A DNA stretch of 33,021 bases from Lachnospiraceae bacterium (GTDB lineage: Bacteria; Bacillota; Clostridia; Lachnospirales; Lachnospiraceae), in contig JAFXQR010000014.1 of NCBI GenBank assembly GCA_017526985.1, positions 1 to 33,021 on the forward strand, given 5' to 3'. The translations under genes and the position numbers were made by a program. The notes beneath the pieces are model-generated. The model had not been told where the DNA came from and did not search any database. It saw only the letters and a list, made by a program, of their open reading frames with translations. This document shows positions 25,686 through 32,796 of the stretch, piece by piece (position 1 is the first letter of the stretch; each line of letters begins with the position of its first letter).

Positions 25686-28600
25686 ATGCGCAAAAGGATA
25701 GCGGTTTTACTGGGACAACCGGAAGTAGATCACCAGAGTCACTTTGTGGAAGGTGTGATGCAGCAGGCGCTGCAGGCGAATTTAGATGTGTGCTTATTCT
25801 CGATGATCCGAATGTACCAGAGCTCTGCGACCAGAGAACAGAGTGATTCCAATATTTTCCGTTTGATCAATCCGAATATGTTTGACGGTGTGATCCTTTT
25901 GCTCGATACCATTCAGACACCTGGGGTGGCAGGCAAGATCGAGGAACATGTAAAAGAAGGGTTTCATGGACCGTCCCTCTGTATCGACATCGGAAGTAAG
26001 TATTTCCCGACGATGTGGACGGATGGTGCTACCGGGATCTATAAGATGGTGGAGCATCTGATCGAAGAGCATCACTATGAGGATATCGCGTTTCTGGCAG
26101 GAAAAGAATGGCATCCGCATTCGCAGGAGCGTTTGAGAGGTTATCGCGAGGCGATGGAGGCGCATGGACTGCCGGTACGGGAAGATTGGATTTATTACGG
26201 TGATTTCTGGTATACCAGCGGTAATGCGTGTGCGGAGCAGATGCTGAAGGACCGGGAACACATGCCGCAGGCACTGGTATGCGCCAATGACTGTATGGCG
26301 ATCGGTTTCTGCGAAGAAATGGAAAAGCATGGCATTCATGTGCCGGATGATATTGCCGTAGTGGGATTTGACGCTACGGAAGAAGGTAAGACCAGTCCGC
26401 AGCCGTTGTCTTCCGTAAAGATCCCATCGAAGGAGCTGGGAGAGCAGGCAGTGAAATATCTGGCAGAGATGCTGAAACGCGGAACGGCGGAAGTGCCTAA
26501 GGTGGTTCCGGATCTGTATATCGGCGGCAGCTGCGGCTGTGCATTTCATCAGGATGGCTATGCGGGACGCAGACATCACTGGCGCAGTGAACTGTCTACG
26601 GATGGTTTTATGTCCGCGACGAATGAAATGGCAGAAGATATGATGATGCAGCCGACTTTTGGGGATTTTCTGCATACGGTATATTCCTATATCTATCAGT
26701 TGCAGCCCATAGAGAGTTTTGACCTTTGCCTGAATGACCAGTGGCGGATGCCCGGTGGTATCACCGAGAGCCGTTTGTTCCAGGCGGGTTATACGCCGAC
26801 GATGCTGCATGCCATTCATTGCCACGGGGAAGGTGCGGACGGTCGTGTCAGTCTGCAGGAGACCTTTTCCACGAAGGATATGCTTCCGGAATTGCAGGAG
26901 GAATCCGACGATCCGAGAGCATGGATGTTTACGCCGCTGTATTTTGAGGCGGGCTGCTTTGGATATGCGGCGGTCCGATATGAAAAGGGAATGTTCGGAT
27001 ATGACCGGGCGTATCGTTGCTGGATCCGTTCGGTGGCACGGGGGCTGGAAGTGATCCGGCGTGTGGAGACGGCGCGGATGCAGCGGCAGAACGGTGGCGG
27101 AGACCGGCCGGAGGAAACGCCGGACCGCAGGCGCAAGGCAGAGATCGGGAGCCTGACGGAAGCAGAGCACGAAGATCTGAAAGAAGTGGAGCGGCTGCTG
27201 GATGAGAACTTGTTCAATTACTTCTTCCAGCCCATCGTATATGCGAAAGACGGCGAGATCTATGCCTATGAAGCGCTGATGCGTGCAAAGACGGAAAAGA
27301 AGATCTCTCCGTTACAGATCATTCGTTATGCCGGGCTGATGAATCGTCTGGATGATGTGGAGCGCCTGACATTTCTGAATGTGCTGAAATTCCTGAAAGA
27401 GCATGCGGAGCTGTTTGAAGGCAAGAGGCTTTTTATCAACAGTATTCCGGGCACGACGCTGGAGGATGCGGATAAACAAAAAGTGGATCAGGAGCTGAAG
27501 CTGCATTCCGAGACTGCCGTGGTGGAACTGACGGAAGAGGCGGAGCTGGACGATGCCGCGCTCGAAGCTATGAAGGTGCGCTATAAGGAGCTGGGGATCA
27601 ATACCGCAGTCGATGACTACGGTACGGGTTATTCCAATATCGCCAATCTTTTGCGCTATATGCCGCAGTATGTAAAGATTGACCGTTCGCTTTTATCCGG
27701 CATTCAGGACAATCCGCAGAAACAGCATTTTGTGCGTGAGATCGTTGAATTTTCCCACGAGAACGGGATCATGGCGCTGGCAGAGGGCGTAGAGACGACG
27801 GAGGAAATGCAGACCGTGATCCATCTGGGGGTGGATCTGATCCAGGGGTATTATACCGCAAAGCCCAATCCGGAGGTGCTGCAAAGTATTGATGAGCGAC
27901 CGAAATCGGAGATCCTGCGCTATCAGAGAGAACGGCAGGATGGGATCGAACACCGCGTATATACGGCAGGGCGTATTGGTCGTGTGCTCTTAAGCAATCT
28001 GACAAAAGACAGCTTCAATACGATCCTGGTAGAGGGCGGAGAGAAGATCTATCGTGACATTACGATCGTCGGTACGCCGGGAAAGAAGACGGATATACAC
28101 CTGGAGGTGCGCAGCGGATATCGTGGGCGCATCACTCTGGAAAATGTAAGTTTTACCAATATCAAAAACCGGCCATGTATCGATATCGGTACCGATTGCT
28201 CGGTGGTGCTGGCCTTGTCCGGTGAGAACTATCTGAAGGGTGGCGGTATTCGGGTGCCGGATGGAGCGGAACTGCGTCTGGAGGGAGACGGCAACCTGGA
28301 GATCCGGGTAGATGAGAATAATTATTTCGGCATCGGCTGCGGCTGGGAAGAGAAACATGGCAAACTGGAATTTTATCACGATGGCATGCTTCGTCTCGTT
28401 ATGAACGGTCAGCGGGGCATCGGAATCGGTTCCGGCTGCGGCGGAGAGATCTGCATCTACAGTGGTATGTATGAAATGGATCTCAATGGCAGTGAAACCG
28501 TGGGGATCGGTGCGGTTTCGGTTCCGGTGGATCTGTATATCCAAAATTGTGATATGAAGGGAGACATCAACTCGGCCAGAGCGGTCTTTGTGGGCAGTTT

Positions 28601-29030
28601 TGAACAAGAAGCAAAAGTGACGGTGGATCGCGCAACGGTGACATGTATGATGGGCGGAGATGTTCAGGTGGCGCTGGGGACGATATTCGGGCCGGCAGCG
28701 GAAGTTCTGATCCGTCATGCAAATTCCCGCCTGGATCTGCAGGCGGACAATGCAACAGTTGTGGGAGCGCGGAACGGAAAAACGGATTTTCGCGTGGATA
28801 CGGCTATGGTCCGGATCGAAGGAAGAGGAAAAGATGCTTATGCATTCGGCGGTGATAATGAGGATACCGATGCCGAGATCTTAAATGCAGATTTTCGTGT
28901 GCGGTTTCGTAATAACAGCGGGAAGGACAGCCTGGTGCAGGAAGACAGGATCCGGATTACCAACGGCAGGCAGGAGATCATCGTTAATGGAAAGACGATC
29001 GAGAGAAAGGTGGAGATCCTGGACTATTAA
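25686..29030 (+). CDS. LacI-type sensor, EAL phosphodiesterase and beta-helix-like repeat protein
   Basis: A 1,114-residue cytosolic protein. Residues 1-285 are a LacI/periplasmic-binding-like ligand domain without the LacI DNA-binding helices (GFDATEEGKTSPQPLSSVKI shows the family end). Residues about 305-465 are an unassigned, possibly GAF-like region. Residues about 508-735 are an EAL domain that would hydrolyse cyclic di-GMP, with the usual residues kept: Glu529 (EAL), Asn585, Glu614, Asp643/Asp644, Lys664, Glu700 and Gln720. Residues about 775-1085 are a repeat domain with units of about 26-28 residues, each carrying a GIG-like turn then a short beta strand, suggesting a right-handed beta-helix. 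The ATG at 25686 follows GGAGG. No clear promoter: a weak TTTATC-N18-TATTAT (25628-25657) is possible. Confidence 0.85.
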   Translation: MRKRIAVLLGQPEVDHQSHFVEGVMQQALQANLDVCLFSMIRMYQSSATREQSDSNIFRLINPNMFDGVILLLDTIQTPGVAGKIEEHVKEGFHGPSLCIDIGSKYFPTMWTDGATGIYKMVEHLIEEHHYEDIAFLAGKEWHPHSQERLRGYREAMEAHGLPVREDWIYYGDFWYTSGNACAEQMLKDREHMPQALVCANDCMAIGFCEEMEKHGIHVPDDIAVVGFDATEEGKTSPQPLSSVKIPSKELGEQAVKYLAEMLKRGTAEVPKVVPDLYIGGSCGCAFHQDGYAGRRHHWRSELSTDGFMSATNEMAEDMMMQPTFGDFLHTVYSYIYQLQPIESFDLCLNDQWRMPGGITESRLFQAGYTPTMLHAIHCHGEGADGRVSLQETFSTKDMLPELQEESDDPRAWMFTPLYFEAGCFGYAAVRYEKGMFGYDRAYRCWIRSVARGLEVIRRVETARMQRQNGGGDRPEETPDRRRKAEIGSLTEAEHEDLKEVERLLDENLFNYFFQPIVYAKDGEIYAYEALMRAKTEKKISPLQIIRYAGLMNRLDDVERLTFLNVLKFLKEHAELFEGKRLFINSIPGTTLEDADKQKVDQELKLHSETAVVELTEEAELDDAALEAMKVRYKELGINTAVDDYGTGYSNIANLLRYMPQYVKIDRSLLSGIQDNPQKQHFVREIVEFSHENGIMALAEGVETTEEMQTVIHLGVDLIQGYYTAKPNPEVLQSIDERPKSEILRYQRERQDGIEHRVYTAGRIGRVLLSNLTKDSFNTILVEGGEKIYRDITIVGTPGKKTDIHLEVRSGYRGRITLENVSFTNIKNRPCIDIGTDCSVVLALSGENYLKGGGIRVPDGAELRLEGDGNLEIRVDENNYFGIGCGWEEKHGKLEFYHDGMLRLVMNGQRGIGIGSGCGGEICIYSGMYEMDLNGSETVGIGAVSVPVDLYIQNCDMKGDINSARAVFVGSFEQEAKVTVDRATVTCMMGGDVQVALGTIFGPAAEVLIRHANSRLDLQADNATVVGARNGKTDFRVDTAMVRIEGRGKDAYAFGGDNEDTDAEILNADFRVRFRNNSGKDSLVQEDRIRITNGRQEIIVNGKTIERKVEILDY

Positions 29031-29144: not shown

Positions 29145-30887
29145 ATGAAGGAACTGATGTTGGGAAACAAGGCCTTTGCCCGTGGTCTGTACGAAGCAGG
29201 CTGCTGTTTTGTTTCCTCTTATCCCGGAACACCCAGTACCGAAGTGACCGAAGAAGCAGCGAAGTATGACGAGATCTACTGCGAATGGGCACCCAATGAG
29301 AAAGTAGCGATGGAGGCGGCGTTTGGCGCATCCTTATCCGGCAGAAGATCGTTTTGCGGTATGAAACATGTAGGTTTGAATGTGGCGGCAGACCCGCTCT
29401 ATACTATGTCTTATACGGGCGTGAACGGCGGCGTGGTGATCTGCGTGGCGGACGATGCAGGCATGCATTCTTCCCAGAACGAGCAGGATTCCCGTCATCA
29501 CGCCATCGCGGCAAAAGTGCCGATGCTGGAGCCGTCCGATTCCAAAGAAGCACTGGAATTTGCGAAGATCGCTTATCAGATCTCCGAGGATTTTGATACG
29601 CCGGTCATCATGAAGATGTGTACCCGTGTGGCACACAGCCAGTCGGTGGTAGAGACTTCCGAGCGTGTGGTACCGGAGCGTAAGGCGTATGAAAAAAACA
29701 TCCCGAAGTATGTAATGATGCCGGGCAATGCGATCCGTCGTCATCCCTTCGTGGAGGAGCGTACCCGCAAGCTGCGGGAGTGGTCCGAGACATCCGGGAT
29801 CAACCGTGTGGAGATGGGCGGTACCGCCATCGGTATCATCACACACTCCACTTCCTATCAGTATGTCAAAGAAGTGTTTGGTGACAGCGTATCCGTACTG
29901 AAGCTCGGTATGGTCAATCCGCTGCCGGAGAAGATGATCAAAGACTTCGCTTCCAAAGTAGAGAAGCTGGTGGTTGTGGAAGAACTGGATCCGATCATCG
30001 AGAACCACTGCAAAGCTCTGGGACTGACCGTATCCGGCAAGGATATCCTGCCGCTGGAGGGTGAGTTCTCCCAGAATATGCTGCGCGGAGCCTTTGGAAA
30101 AGAAGTTCCTTCCGGCAATGCCGTAGAAGATACCATTCCGATGCGCCCGCCTGTAATGTGTGCAGGCTGCCCGCACAGAGGTCTGTTCTATACTCTGAAT
30201 AAGAATAAGTGCACCGTTCTCGGAGATATCGGCTGTTACACGCTGGGGGCTGTGGCTCCGCTGTCTGCCATTGATATGACACTGTGCATGGGCGCTTCCG
30301 TAAGTGCGATCCACGGCTACAACATTGCCGGGGAAGGCGCAAACGAGGGCAAGACCGTTGCCGTGATCGGTGACTCTACCTTTATGCATTCCGGTATGAC
30401 CGGTCTGGCAAACATCGCGTATAACCAGTCTAATTCGACGGTGATCATTCTGGATAACTCCATCACCGGTATGACGGGCCATCAGCAGAACCCGACCACC
30501 GGCTACAACATCAAAGGGGATCCGGCAGGCAAGATCGATCTGGAAGCATTGTGCAGAGCTATGGGCTTCAACCGCGTGCGCGTGGTAGATCCGTACGATC
30601 TGAAGGCATGCGATGCGGCAGTCAAAGAAGAGCTGGCAGCAAACGAGCCTTCCGTGATCATCTCCAGAAGACCGTGTGCACTGCTGAAGTATGTGAAACA
30701 CAATGCACCGCTTACCGTAAATACCGATAAGTGCGTGGGCTGCAAGTCCTGTATGCGCATCGGCTGCCCGGCCATTTCCATCAAGGACGGCAAGGCGCGC
30801 GTGGATGCGACACTGTGCGTAGGCTGCGGTGTCTGCGAGCAGATGTGCGGCGTGAAAGCATTTGAAAGTACAAAGAAAGATAATTAA
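29145..30887 (+). CDS. iorA: Indolepyruvate ferredoxin oxidoreductase alpha subunit
   Basis: A 580-residue thiamine-diphosphate enzyme subunit that oxidatively decarboxylates aryl-pyruvates (from tryptophan, phenylalanine or tyrosine) to aryl-acetyl-CoA, reducing ferredoxin. The N-terminal domain has SSYPGTPSTEV (24-34). The cofactor-binding domain has CAGCPHRGLFY, GDIGCYTLG and GDSTFMHSGMTGLANIAYN through NSITGMTGHQQNP. Two [4Fe-4S] ferredoxin-like sites end the protein: Cys530, 533, 536, 541 and Cys558, 561, 564, 568. GGAGAGG precedes the ATG. iorB follows by 17 bases. The order iorA-iorB-paaK-ACT is a conserved anaerobic cassette. Confidence 0.96.
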   Translation: MKELMLGNKAFARGLYEAGCCFVSSYPGTPSTEVTEEAAKYDEIYCEWAPNEKVAMEAAFGASLSGRRSFCGMKHVGLNVAADPLYTMSYTGVNGGVVICVADDAGMHSSQNEQDSRHHAIAAKVPMLEPSDSKEALEFAKIAYQISEDFDTPVIMKMCTRVAHSQSVVETSERVVPERKAYEKNIPKYVMMPGNAIRRHPFVEERTRKLREWSETSGINRVEMGGTAIGIITHSTSYQYVKEVFGDSVSVLKLGMVNPLPEKMIKDFASKVEKLVVVEELDPIIENHCKALGLTVSGKDILPLEGEFSQNMLRGAFGKEVPSGNAVEDTIPMRPPVMCAGCPHRGLFYTLNKNKCTVLGDIGCYTLGAVAPLSAIDMTLCMGASVSAIHGYNIAGEGANEGKTVAVIGDSTFMHSGMTGLANIAYNQSNSTVIILDNSITGMTGHQQNPTTGYNIKGDPAGKIDLEALCRAMGFNRVRVVDPYDLKACDAAVKEELAANEPSVIISRRPCALLKYVKHNAPLTVNTDKCVGCKSCMRIGCPAISIKDGKARVDATLCVGCGVCEQMCGVKAFESTKKDN

Positions 30888-30904
30888 AGGGAGGCCATCT
30901 GAAA

Positions 30905-31480
30905 ATGAGTGAAACAAAGAATGTGATGATCGTAGGTGTCGGTGGCCAGGGCTCTTTGTTGGCAAGCAAGCTGCTTGGCAAACTGCTTTTGGATGCAGGC
31001 TATGATGTAAAGGTTTCCGAAGTGCATGGTATGAGCCAGCGCGGCGGAAGCGTGGTAACCTATGTGCGTTATGGTGAAAAAGTATATTCTCCCGTGATCG
31101 ATAAGGGCGAAGCAGATTATATCGTATCGTTTGAGCTGTTGGAGGCTGCAAGATGGCTGCCGTACTTAAAGAAGGACGGACAGATCGTGACCAATATCCA
31201 GCAGATCGATCCGATGCCCGTGATCACCGGAGCGCAGGAATATCCGACCGATCTGGTGGAAAAGATGAAAGCCACCGGCGCAAAAGTGGATGCACTGGAT
31301 TGTCTGGCCCTGGCAGAACAGGCCGGATCCTCCAAGGCAGTTAACATCGTTTTGATGGGCAGACTGTCACATTATTTCAATATGCCGGAAGAAGCATGGC
31401 AGAAAGCAATGGAAGCTATGGTTCCGGCCAAGTTCCTGGAGATGAACAAGAAAGCGTTCGAACTCGGGAAAAACGCGTAG
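30905..31480 (+). CDS. iorB: Indolepyruvate ferredoxin oxidoreductase beta subunit
   Basis: A 191-residue gamma-type domain subunit that completes the IorAB complex and carries the CoA-linked part of the reaction. Family marks are VGVGGQGSLLASKLLG (10-25) and EVHGMSQRGGSVVTYVRYG (39-57), typical of 2-oxoacid:ferredoxin oxidoreductase gamma domains. GGGAGG lies before the ATG. It is 17 bases after iorA and 14 before paaK, so the three are likely one transcript. Confidence 0.95.
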   Translation: MSETKNVMIVGVGGQGSLLASKLLGKLLLDAGYDVKVSEVHGMSQRGGSVVTYVRYGEKVYSPVIDKGEADYIVSFELLEAARWLPYLKKDGQIVTNIQQIDPMPVITGAQEYPTDLVEKMKATGAKVDALDCLALAEQAGSSKAVNIVLMGRLSHYFNMPEEAWQKAMEAMVPAKFLEMNKKAFELGKNA

Positions 31481-31494
31481 GAGGTTTTGTACCA

Positions 31495-32796
31495 ATGGAA
31501 AACTATTTCCAGAAAGAGATTGAATGTGCTTCGCGGGAAGAGATCGTAGCCATTCAGAACAAGAAACTGGTAGAGCAGGTACACCATGTATGGGAGAATG
31601 TACCCTACTACCGCAAAAAGATGGAAGAGAAGGGTGTCACACCGGATGACATCAAGAGCATCGATGACCTGCATAAACTGCCGTTCTTATCCAAGGATGA
31701 TCTGCGCAATGCATATCCTTACGGTTTGATGGGCGTTCCCAAGGAAGAAGTGGTGCGTATCCATTCCACTTCCGGTACCACCGGCAAACGCGTGATCGCA
31801 TTCTACACCCAGGCGGATGTGGATCTTTGGGAAGACTGCTGCGCAAGAGCGCTGATGGCAGCAGGCGCTACCAAAGAAGATGTCTGCCAGGTATCTTACG
31901 GCTACGGTTTATTCACCGGTGGCGCAGGCCTGCATGGCGGCAGCCATAAGGTAGGTTGTATGACCGTTCCCATGTCTTCGGGCAATACGGAGCGTCAGAT
32001 TATGTTCCTTCGTGATCTGGAAGCGACCATCATCTGCTGTACCCCCAGCTATGCGGCATATCTGGGCGAGAGCATGAAAGAGATGGGACTTACCCCGGAG
32101 GACATCCCTCTGAAGGCCGGTATCTTCGGCGCAGAGGCTTGGAGTGAGGAGATGCGTAAGGATATCGAAAAGACCCTGGGCATCAAGGCATTTGATATCT
32201 ATGGTCTGACCGAGCTTTCCGGACCGGGTGTGGCATTTGAGTGCAGCGCCCAGAACGGTATGCACATCAACGAAGACCACTTCATCGCGGAGATCATCGA
32301 TCCCAAGACTCACGAAGTGCTGCCGGACGGTGAGCAGGGTGAGCTGGTATTTACGGCCATCGACAAGAAGGGATTCCCGATGATCCGTTACCGTACCAAG
32401 GATATCTGCGTACTGCATCGTGAGAAATGCCCTTGCGGACGTACCCATGTAAAGATGGAGAAGCCGAAGGGACGCAGTGATGATATGCTCATCATCCGCG
32501 GTGTCAATGTATTCCCGTCCCAGATCGAAGCAGTGCTTCTGGAGAACGGCTATCAGGCAAACTACCAGATCATCGTGGACCGCGTGAACAACAACGATAC
32601 GCTGGATGTACATGTAGAGATGACACCGGAGATGTTTACCGATAACGTCAACGAGATCACCAAGCGCCAGAACGACCTGGTGGCAGGCATGAAGAGCATG
32701 CTGGGCATCAAGGCAAAGGTAACGCTGGTAGCTCCGAAGAGCATCACCCGCAGCGAAGGCAAGGCAGTACGTGTGATCGATAACCGCAGGATCTGA
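31495..32796 (+). CDS. paaK: Phenylacetate-CoA ligase
   Basis: A 433-residue adenylate-forming enzyme. The phosphate-binding loop is STSGTTGKR (91-99), the adenine motif is in DIYGLTELSGPG, and the C-terminal domain has RGVNVFPSQIE and TRSEGKAVRV. In catabolism PaaK activates phenylacetate to its CoA ester; next to IorAB it more likely turns aryl-acetyl-CoA into free aryl-acetate with ATP gain, or runs the reverse for aromatic amino acid synthesis. The ATG at 31495 follows AGGAGG; an in-frame start upstream lies inside iorB. The length matches the family. Confidence 0.95.
   Translation: MENYFQKEIECASREEIVAIQNKKLVEQVHHVWENVPYYRKKMEEKGVTPDDIKSIDDLHKLPFLSKDDLRNAYPYGLMGVPKEEVVRIHSTSGTTGKRVIAFYTQADVDLWEDCCARALMAAGATKEDVCQVSYGYGLFTGGAGLHGGSHKVGCMTVPMSSGNTERQIMFLRDLEATIICCTPSYAAYLGESMKEMGLTPEDIPLKAGIFGAEAWSEEMRKDIEKTLGIKAFDIYGLTELSGPGVAFECSAQNGMHINEDHFIAEIIDPKTHEVLPDGEQGELVFTAIDKKGFPMIRYRTKDICVLHREKCPCGRTHVKMEKPKGRSDDMLIIRGVNVFPSQIEAVLLENGYQANYQIIVDRVNNNDTLDVHVEMTPEMFTDNVNEITKRQNDLVAGMKSMLGIKAKVTLVAPKSITRSEGKAVRVIDNRRI

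Follow-up and report, generated by a model that had tools for sequence, protein, structure and literature searches.

A predicted LacI-type and EAL domain protein with a C-terminal beta-helix in a gut Lachnospiraceae bacterium

Domain architecture of the protein

A 33,021-nucleotide stretch of DNA from Lachnospiraceae bacterium (GenBank assembly GCA_017526985.1, contig JAFXQR010000014.1, positions 1 to 33,021 of the forward strand; hereafter the window), a gut organism with rumen species among its relatives, contains a gene whose product joins a LacI-type ligand-binding domain, an EAL cyclic di-GMP (c-di-GMP) phosphodiesterase domain and a large C-terminal beta-helix. The protein thus combines a known enzyme and a known sensor fold with an unfamiliar domain of traceable origin, an arrangement that is unusual but interpretable (Table 1).

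Pfam recognizes the first two parts (Peripla_BP_3, E 1e-31; EAL, E 1e-51) and returns no match past residue 727 or for residues 315-440, while the 25 NCBIfam models shown, of 32, all score below their cut-offs. Residues 293-468 have no match in a PDB sequence search. The same kind of search with the C-terminus as a single protein returned nothing, and with its profile only Putidacin L1, at E 0.5, so that no Pfam, NCBIfam or PDB-sequence family was found for the C-terminal domain. The original prediction had described this region as a beta-helix-like repeat domain, and structure prediction returned a right-handed parallel beta-helix over residues 758-1100, enclosing the solenoid proposed at 775-1085, in an AlphaFold2 model with a predicted local distance difference test score (pLDDT) of 94.7 and a predicted template modelling score (pTM) of 0.92. 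The sequence of the protein also holds no export or membrane segment, as had been proposed, its most hydrophobic 19-residue stretch averaging 1.23.

Table 1. Positions of the gene, of its predicted domains and of the riboswitch-linked genes elsewhere in the same genome
Feature	Position	Strand	Remarks
Whole gene, 1114 residues	25686..29030	+	Open frame; span covers the ATG and the stop codon
LacI-type periplasmic-binding-protein fold, residues 1-285	25686..26540	+	No helix-turn-helix
Alpha/beta segment (315-440) and long helix (441-467)	26628..27086	+	GAF/PAS-like by secondary-structure order only
Linker, residues 470-481	27093..27128	+	pLDDT under 50; site of GGDEF insertion in other members
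EAL c-di-GMP phosphodiesterase domain, residues 500-727	27183..27866	+	Eight named catalytic residues present
Helix 737-751	27894..27938	+	Connects EAL to beta-helix; structure model
Right-handed parallel beta-helix, residues 758-1100	27957..28985	+	No Pfam family; structure model
Riboswitch-preceded prepilin-motif gene	L279:868-1449	-	
Riboswitch-preceded prepilin-motif gene	L280:3122-3838	+	

The EAL and LacI-type domains

EAL enzymes usually carry extra domains in front, as sensors. The EAL domain of the window protein scores 175.9 bits against a Pfam cut-off of 31.3, and the eight catalytic and metal-binding residues named in the original prediction, whose list we adopted, are all in place and invariant wherever aligned in 141 rows (140 relatives, equal to 126 distinct frames). 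We infer that the domain hydrolyzes c-di-GMP to pGpG. Its structural matches include the EAL domains of LapD and FimX, which are non-catalytic receptors, and a receptor role would fit that likeness; with the full catalytic set retained and invariant where aligned, we regard it as highly improbable. The solved EAL phosphodiesterases PA0575, MorA, PdeA and YahA lack both the LacI-type sensor in front and the beta-helix behind, and none of the 50 solved entries listed bears a title naming this three-part combination.

In the fold test, residues 1-285 showed the LacI-type ligand-binding fold and no N-terminal helix-turn-helix of a LacI-type transcription regulator. The fold begins at residue 1-2 and the frame upstream is open for 21 codons only, which bears out the earlier claim that the DNA-binding helices are missing. 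Compared with the LacI/GalR effector domains of CcpA, PurR and RbsR, the window protein therefore has an enzyme as its output in place of DNA-binding helices. Among 69 members, 15 of 23 LacI-domain positions, picked with the conservation of an earlier alignment in view, are identical in all 69, which points to one shared ligand. The LacI contact positions R149 and N201 are invariant in 69/69, whereas residue 229, presumably the equivalent of LacI D274, is not conserved (D in 36, G in 32 of the 69). Of the cytosolic sugar sensor lowering c-di-GMP that had been put forward, the missing export segment, the LacI-type sensor and the intact EAL domain speak for the cytosolic, sensory and enzymatic parts, while, given this split at residue 229, sugar is at most a probable ligand.

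The beta-helix and its relatives

The C-terminal domain has the beta-helix fold of PF14262 (Cthe_2159), although neither this model nor PF18889 (Beta_helix_3) recognizes it: PF14262 does not match the window and matches one of 46 members, at E 0.18, and PF18889 matches neither the window nor any of the 46 at E up to 1. Among distant profile matches in other families, many of those printed show, by eye, a leader-like N-terminus. Six secreted proteins hand-picked among the weaker profile matches all carry Beta_helix_3 (6/6), one together with Cthe_2159 and one with S-layer domains. Compared by hhalign with secreted GIGGG helices, the domain aligned over 150 columns at 32% identity (probability 98.1); a control with the EAL profile gave 0.04. 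Since the secreted profile comprises just six sequences and has a high glycine content, the evidence for descent from secreted GIGGG/Cthe_2159-type helices is good but not final. These right-handed beta-helices, with detectable homology to the window domain, are secreted and in the proteins seen are not joined to EAL; because the distant relatives are secreted GIGGG-repeat proteins, an extracellular fold has apparently moved into the cytosol. Cysteine content was tried as a marker of cytosolic location and rejected (1.85 per 100 residues, versus 1.52 in secreted helices).

Conservation is unevenly spread along the helix. Among the 18 columns that are at least 80% conserved and hold polar, charged, aromatic or Cys residues, 15 fall within 749-898, and the remaining three are 929, 955 and 1101; mean conservation runs at 0.54-0.70 over 747-942 and at 0.38-0.46 over 943-1110. 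Past residue 898, Y929, C955 and N1101 are the only residues at 80% conservation that are neither hydrophobic nor Gly, and none is acidic. This paucity of conserved polar residues argues, if tentatively, against a shared active site of the lyase type. The same pattern bears on the idea that polysaccharide binding persists in the beta-helix, with an intracellular target such as a storage glucan or a polymer under synthesis, and that the enzyme would read both free ligand and polymer. With those three residues all that remains past 898, there is no sign of a common groove for catalysis or metal binding, and the fold alone demonstrates no function; we consider this reading possible, if on the unlikely side.

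Beta-helix length among the members listed ranges from 119 to 359 residues, and three natural short forms keep just 119-155 residues from residue 756 on. As the conserved coils are N-terminal and the short forms keep the N-terminal part, this portion would seem tied to EAL, with the C-terminal portion freer. The length variation also bears on a bactofilin-like role, in which the beta-helix would be a self-assembly module clustering the phosphodiesterase in filaments or foci. Bactofilins are reported to polymerize through a beta-helical core (PMC12364344). They resemble the window domain in being cytosolic beta-helices, yet by sequence they form a different family: the domain is not a Bactofilin (PF04519) by its Pfam model, which matches one of 46 members, at E 0.78. 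Bactofilins are not known to carry an EAL or sensor domain. Because the EAL domain precedes the first coil and natural lengths vary so widely, self-assembly appears to us unlikely.

Association with EAL, gain and loss

At least a partial EAL domain precedes the beta-helix in 60/60 genus loci fetched, in 79 of the 80 named loci, the remaining one being cut by a contig end, and in 10/10 strong matches from other genera. The N-termini are more diverse. With inserts counted by length and LacI-type calls including matches as low as 18.6 bits, the 60 genus loci comprise 18 LacI-type forms without an insert, 19 LacI-type forms with a GGDEF-size insert, 16 with the insert and no LacI-type domain, and seven that are cut or short. 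The beta-helix would thus be tied to EAL and not to the LacI-type domain.

GGDEF domains make c-di-GMP. The stretch equivalent to residues 460-495 measures 174-192 residues in members with the insert, and Pfam finds GGDEF in eight of nine insert or short members scanned, the exception being L092. In 23 of the 37 insert frames the motif could be read, and it was degenerate in 22 (GADEF, GSDEF and GTDEF, among others, in L042, L048 and further loci) and intact in L088; the degenerate inserts are possibly remnants. In L088 and L218 the N-terminal parts are hydrophobic. Four LacI-type GGDEF proteins of the window genome (frames of 639-883 residues on C10, C128, C204 and C205) share the LacI-type domain and the alpha/beta segment, with 24-28% identity over about window residues 1-437, and carry GGDEF further on, with no EAL match found.

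Searches based on the beta-helix cannot show its absence, whereas an EAL-based search can. An EAL-only search of 200 family genomes gave 42 matches in 31 genomes. Thirty of them score at least 297 bits, 24 with the beta-helix (one short, one cut), five without it and one cut off; all 12 below 297 bits lack it, and the three of these that were scanned are GGDEF-EAL proteins without a LacI-type domain. The five close relatives stop 20-28 residues past EAL and are, at 909-961 residues, LacI-type-GGDEF-EAL proteins (LacI-type domain in 5/5, GGDEF in 4/5 at E 1e-5) that differ from the window protein in lacking the beta-helix. The notion that the beta-helix was never lost was rejected on this result.

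In a first tree, 58 beta-helix EAL domains formed one clade (support 100/100) against 14 other EAL domains of the window genome. In a tree of 89 EAL domains, rooted by choice with the 12 lower-scoring rows as outgroup, those rows stand apart and the other 77 (72 with, five without the beta-helix) group together (100/99). The beta-helix label requires at least four changes on this tree, three of them forced by well-supported branches. A loss is placed in L256/L263, and the clade of L224, L225, L258, L259 and L262 can be explained by three losses, or by one loss plus a regain; the four-change history implies a regain (L224/L225), and a single gain followed by losses only takes five. Most simply, the beta-helix would have been gained once at the base of the clade, with later loss or shortening in places and perhaps one regain. 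Because of the outgroup rooting and the domain content, GGDEF-EAL is the likely ancestral form, from which the window type would have lost GGDEF.

These gains and losses raise the question of whether the beta-helix is a passenger that merely caps or stabilizes EAL, without a partner. Its absence from five of the 30 close EAL relatives and the three short members would suit such a role, but full length is maintained across many loci and the N-terminal half holds invariant residues, so that we judge it improbable.

Distribution of the family

The window genome holds three copies of the C-terminal domain, namely that of the window gene, that of a full-length paralogue with 47% identity, and a third behind a GGDEF-EAL protein without a LacI-type domain. 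A single-protein search found the domain in 33 of 60 genomes; besides the window genome these were 32 of its 34 congeners, and the 25 others gave none. At the level of the order, a profile search at E 1e-3 matched 29 of 392 genomes, with weak secreted matches counted; at the level of the phylum and at E 1e-5 it matched five of 398, three with the strong type (the window's own, G063 and G758).

The LacI-EAL-beta-helix order described in the original prediction is no isolated case. Of 122 named loci the best 80 were kept, and 71 of these contain co-linear relatives that are uncut and full-length; the other nine, which are cut or match from past residue 40, were left out of the full-length set. 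The 60 genus loci come from 62 places, less the window's own and the twin contig G018:C106, and with the named loci make 140 rows, or 126 distinct frames with 14 overlapping pairs. L134, L138 and L183 (set A3) and L134, L138 and L184 (set A4) were dropped before counts, and L229 gave no match at E 1e-3. G018:C42 and G018:C106, of one genome, gave equal-score beta-helix matches, and the assembly is listed with 8% contamination. A ruminant stomach compartment appears in the record titles of 26 of the 80 named loci, and others bear RUG labels or stem from cultured isolates, including Ruminococcus albus KH2T6. The nearest named record among the best 80, from an uncultured Lachnospiraceae bacterium, is 89% identical in the beta-helix. 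In the open-licence literature searched, titles and abstract openings show no EAL-beta-helix protein.

Genomic context

The window neighbours scanned serve housekeeping or peripheral metabolism. Downstream, at 29145-32796, are genes whose Pfam domains suggest, by eye, an indolepyruvate-type ferredoxin oxidoreductase pair and also an enzyme resembling phenylacetate-CoA ligase; relatives of the former adjoin the gene in six loci, with no evident link to c-di-GMP, and polar amino-acid ATP-binding cassette transporter-like genes (by eye) lie near it in nine, including L143. The commonest neighbour cluster occurs near 14 of 81 loci, and in the single example scanned, at L136:7108-8148 (+), it is a GGDEF protein (Pfam E 1e-35) whose gene immediately follows that of the L136 homologue. 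Upstream of the full-length paralogue, L002:4838-6262 (-) shows by eye HD-GYP-like and receiver domains, possibly a second kind of c-di-GMP phosphodiesterase. In the window itself, no Rfam family reaches its gathering score, no terminator was found, and three promoter-like sites compare with 3.9 expected by chance.

In the window genome, 54 matches to GGDEF pass the cut-off, alongside 21 to EAL and two to PilZ, and there are two c-di-GMP-I riboswitches, which precede genes bearing the Pfam N_methyl prepilin motif by 114 and 72 bases (Table 1). A flagellin gene (L280:5271-6455) lies near one of these prepilin genes. A search of the genome for c-di-GMP-II riboswitches gave no match, but neither did its controls. 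In Clostridioides difficile, phase-variable c-di-GMP phosphodiesterases are known (PMC9286219).

Discussion

We propose, with moderate confidence, that the window protein is a soluble, cytosolic, ligand-gated c-di-GMP phosphodiesterase with a non-catalytic beta-helix arm for docking or scaffolding. The LacI-type domain would bind a small polar metabolite common to these bacteria, probably a sugar or sugar-like compound, and the ensuing change would reach EAL by way of the alpha/beta segment and helix 441-467, altering its presumed hydrolysis of c-di-GMP to pGpG. The beta-helix would serve as a rigid non-enzymatic arm, its conserved N-terminal coils beside EAL and the variable C-terminal ones available for a partner to bind, thereby docking or arranging the phosphodiesterase in the cell. 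The likely read-outs are the riboswitches upstream of the prepilin-type genes and the two PilZ proteins, and through them the enzyme would help to move cells from attachment by pili to a free state and back.

Several points weigh against this proposal. Contacts between domains are not reliably predicted, since the full-length model reaches a pTM of only 0.52, and the packing of the N-terminal coils on EAL is a guess that draws on conservation. The beta-helix is dispensable in some lineages, where close relatives keep the LacI-type domain and EAL without it; one short form (L100) is known from a single genome and may reflect a frameshift; cysteine content fails to separate these helices from secreted ones; and no conserved partner gene occurs near family loci.

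A more speculative and rather doubtful view is that a formerly extracellular glycan-binding beta-helix became a second, C-terminal sensor, with the LacI-type domain reading a metabolite and the beta-helix an intracellular polysaccharide, both setting c-di-GMP in fibre-attached rumen bacteria. Whichever role applies, a large domain outside Pfam, akin to secreted surface-type proteins, is retained behind EAL under several kinds of N-terminus. Publications on c-di-GMP in rumen Lachnospiraceae seem to be few in the open-licence literature searched. If the beta-helix docks the enzyme or binds a polymer, the family would offer a testable case of c-di-GMP signalling that is localized or linked to metabolism in rumen Clostridia.
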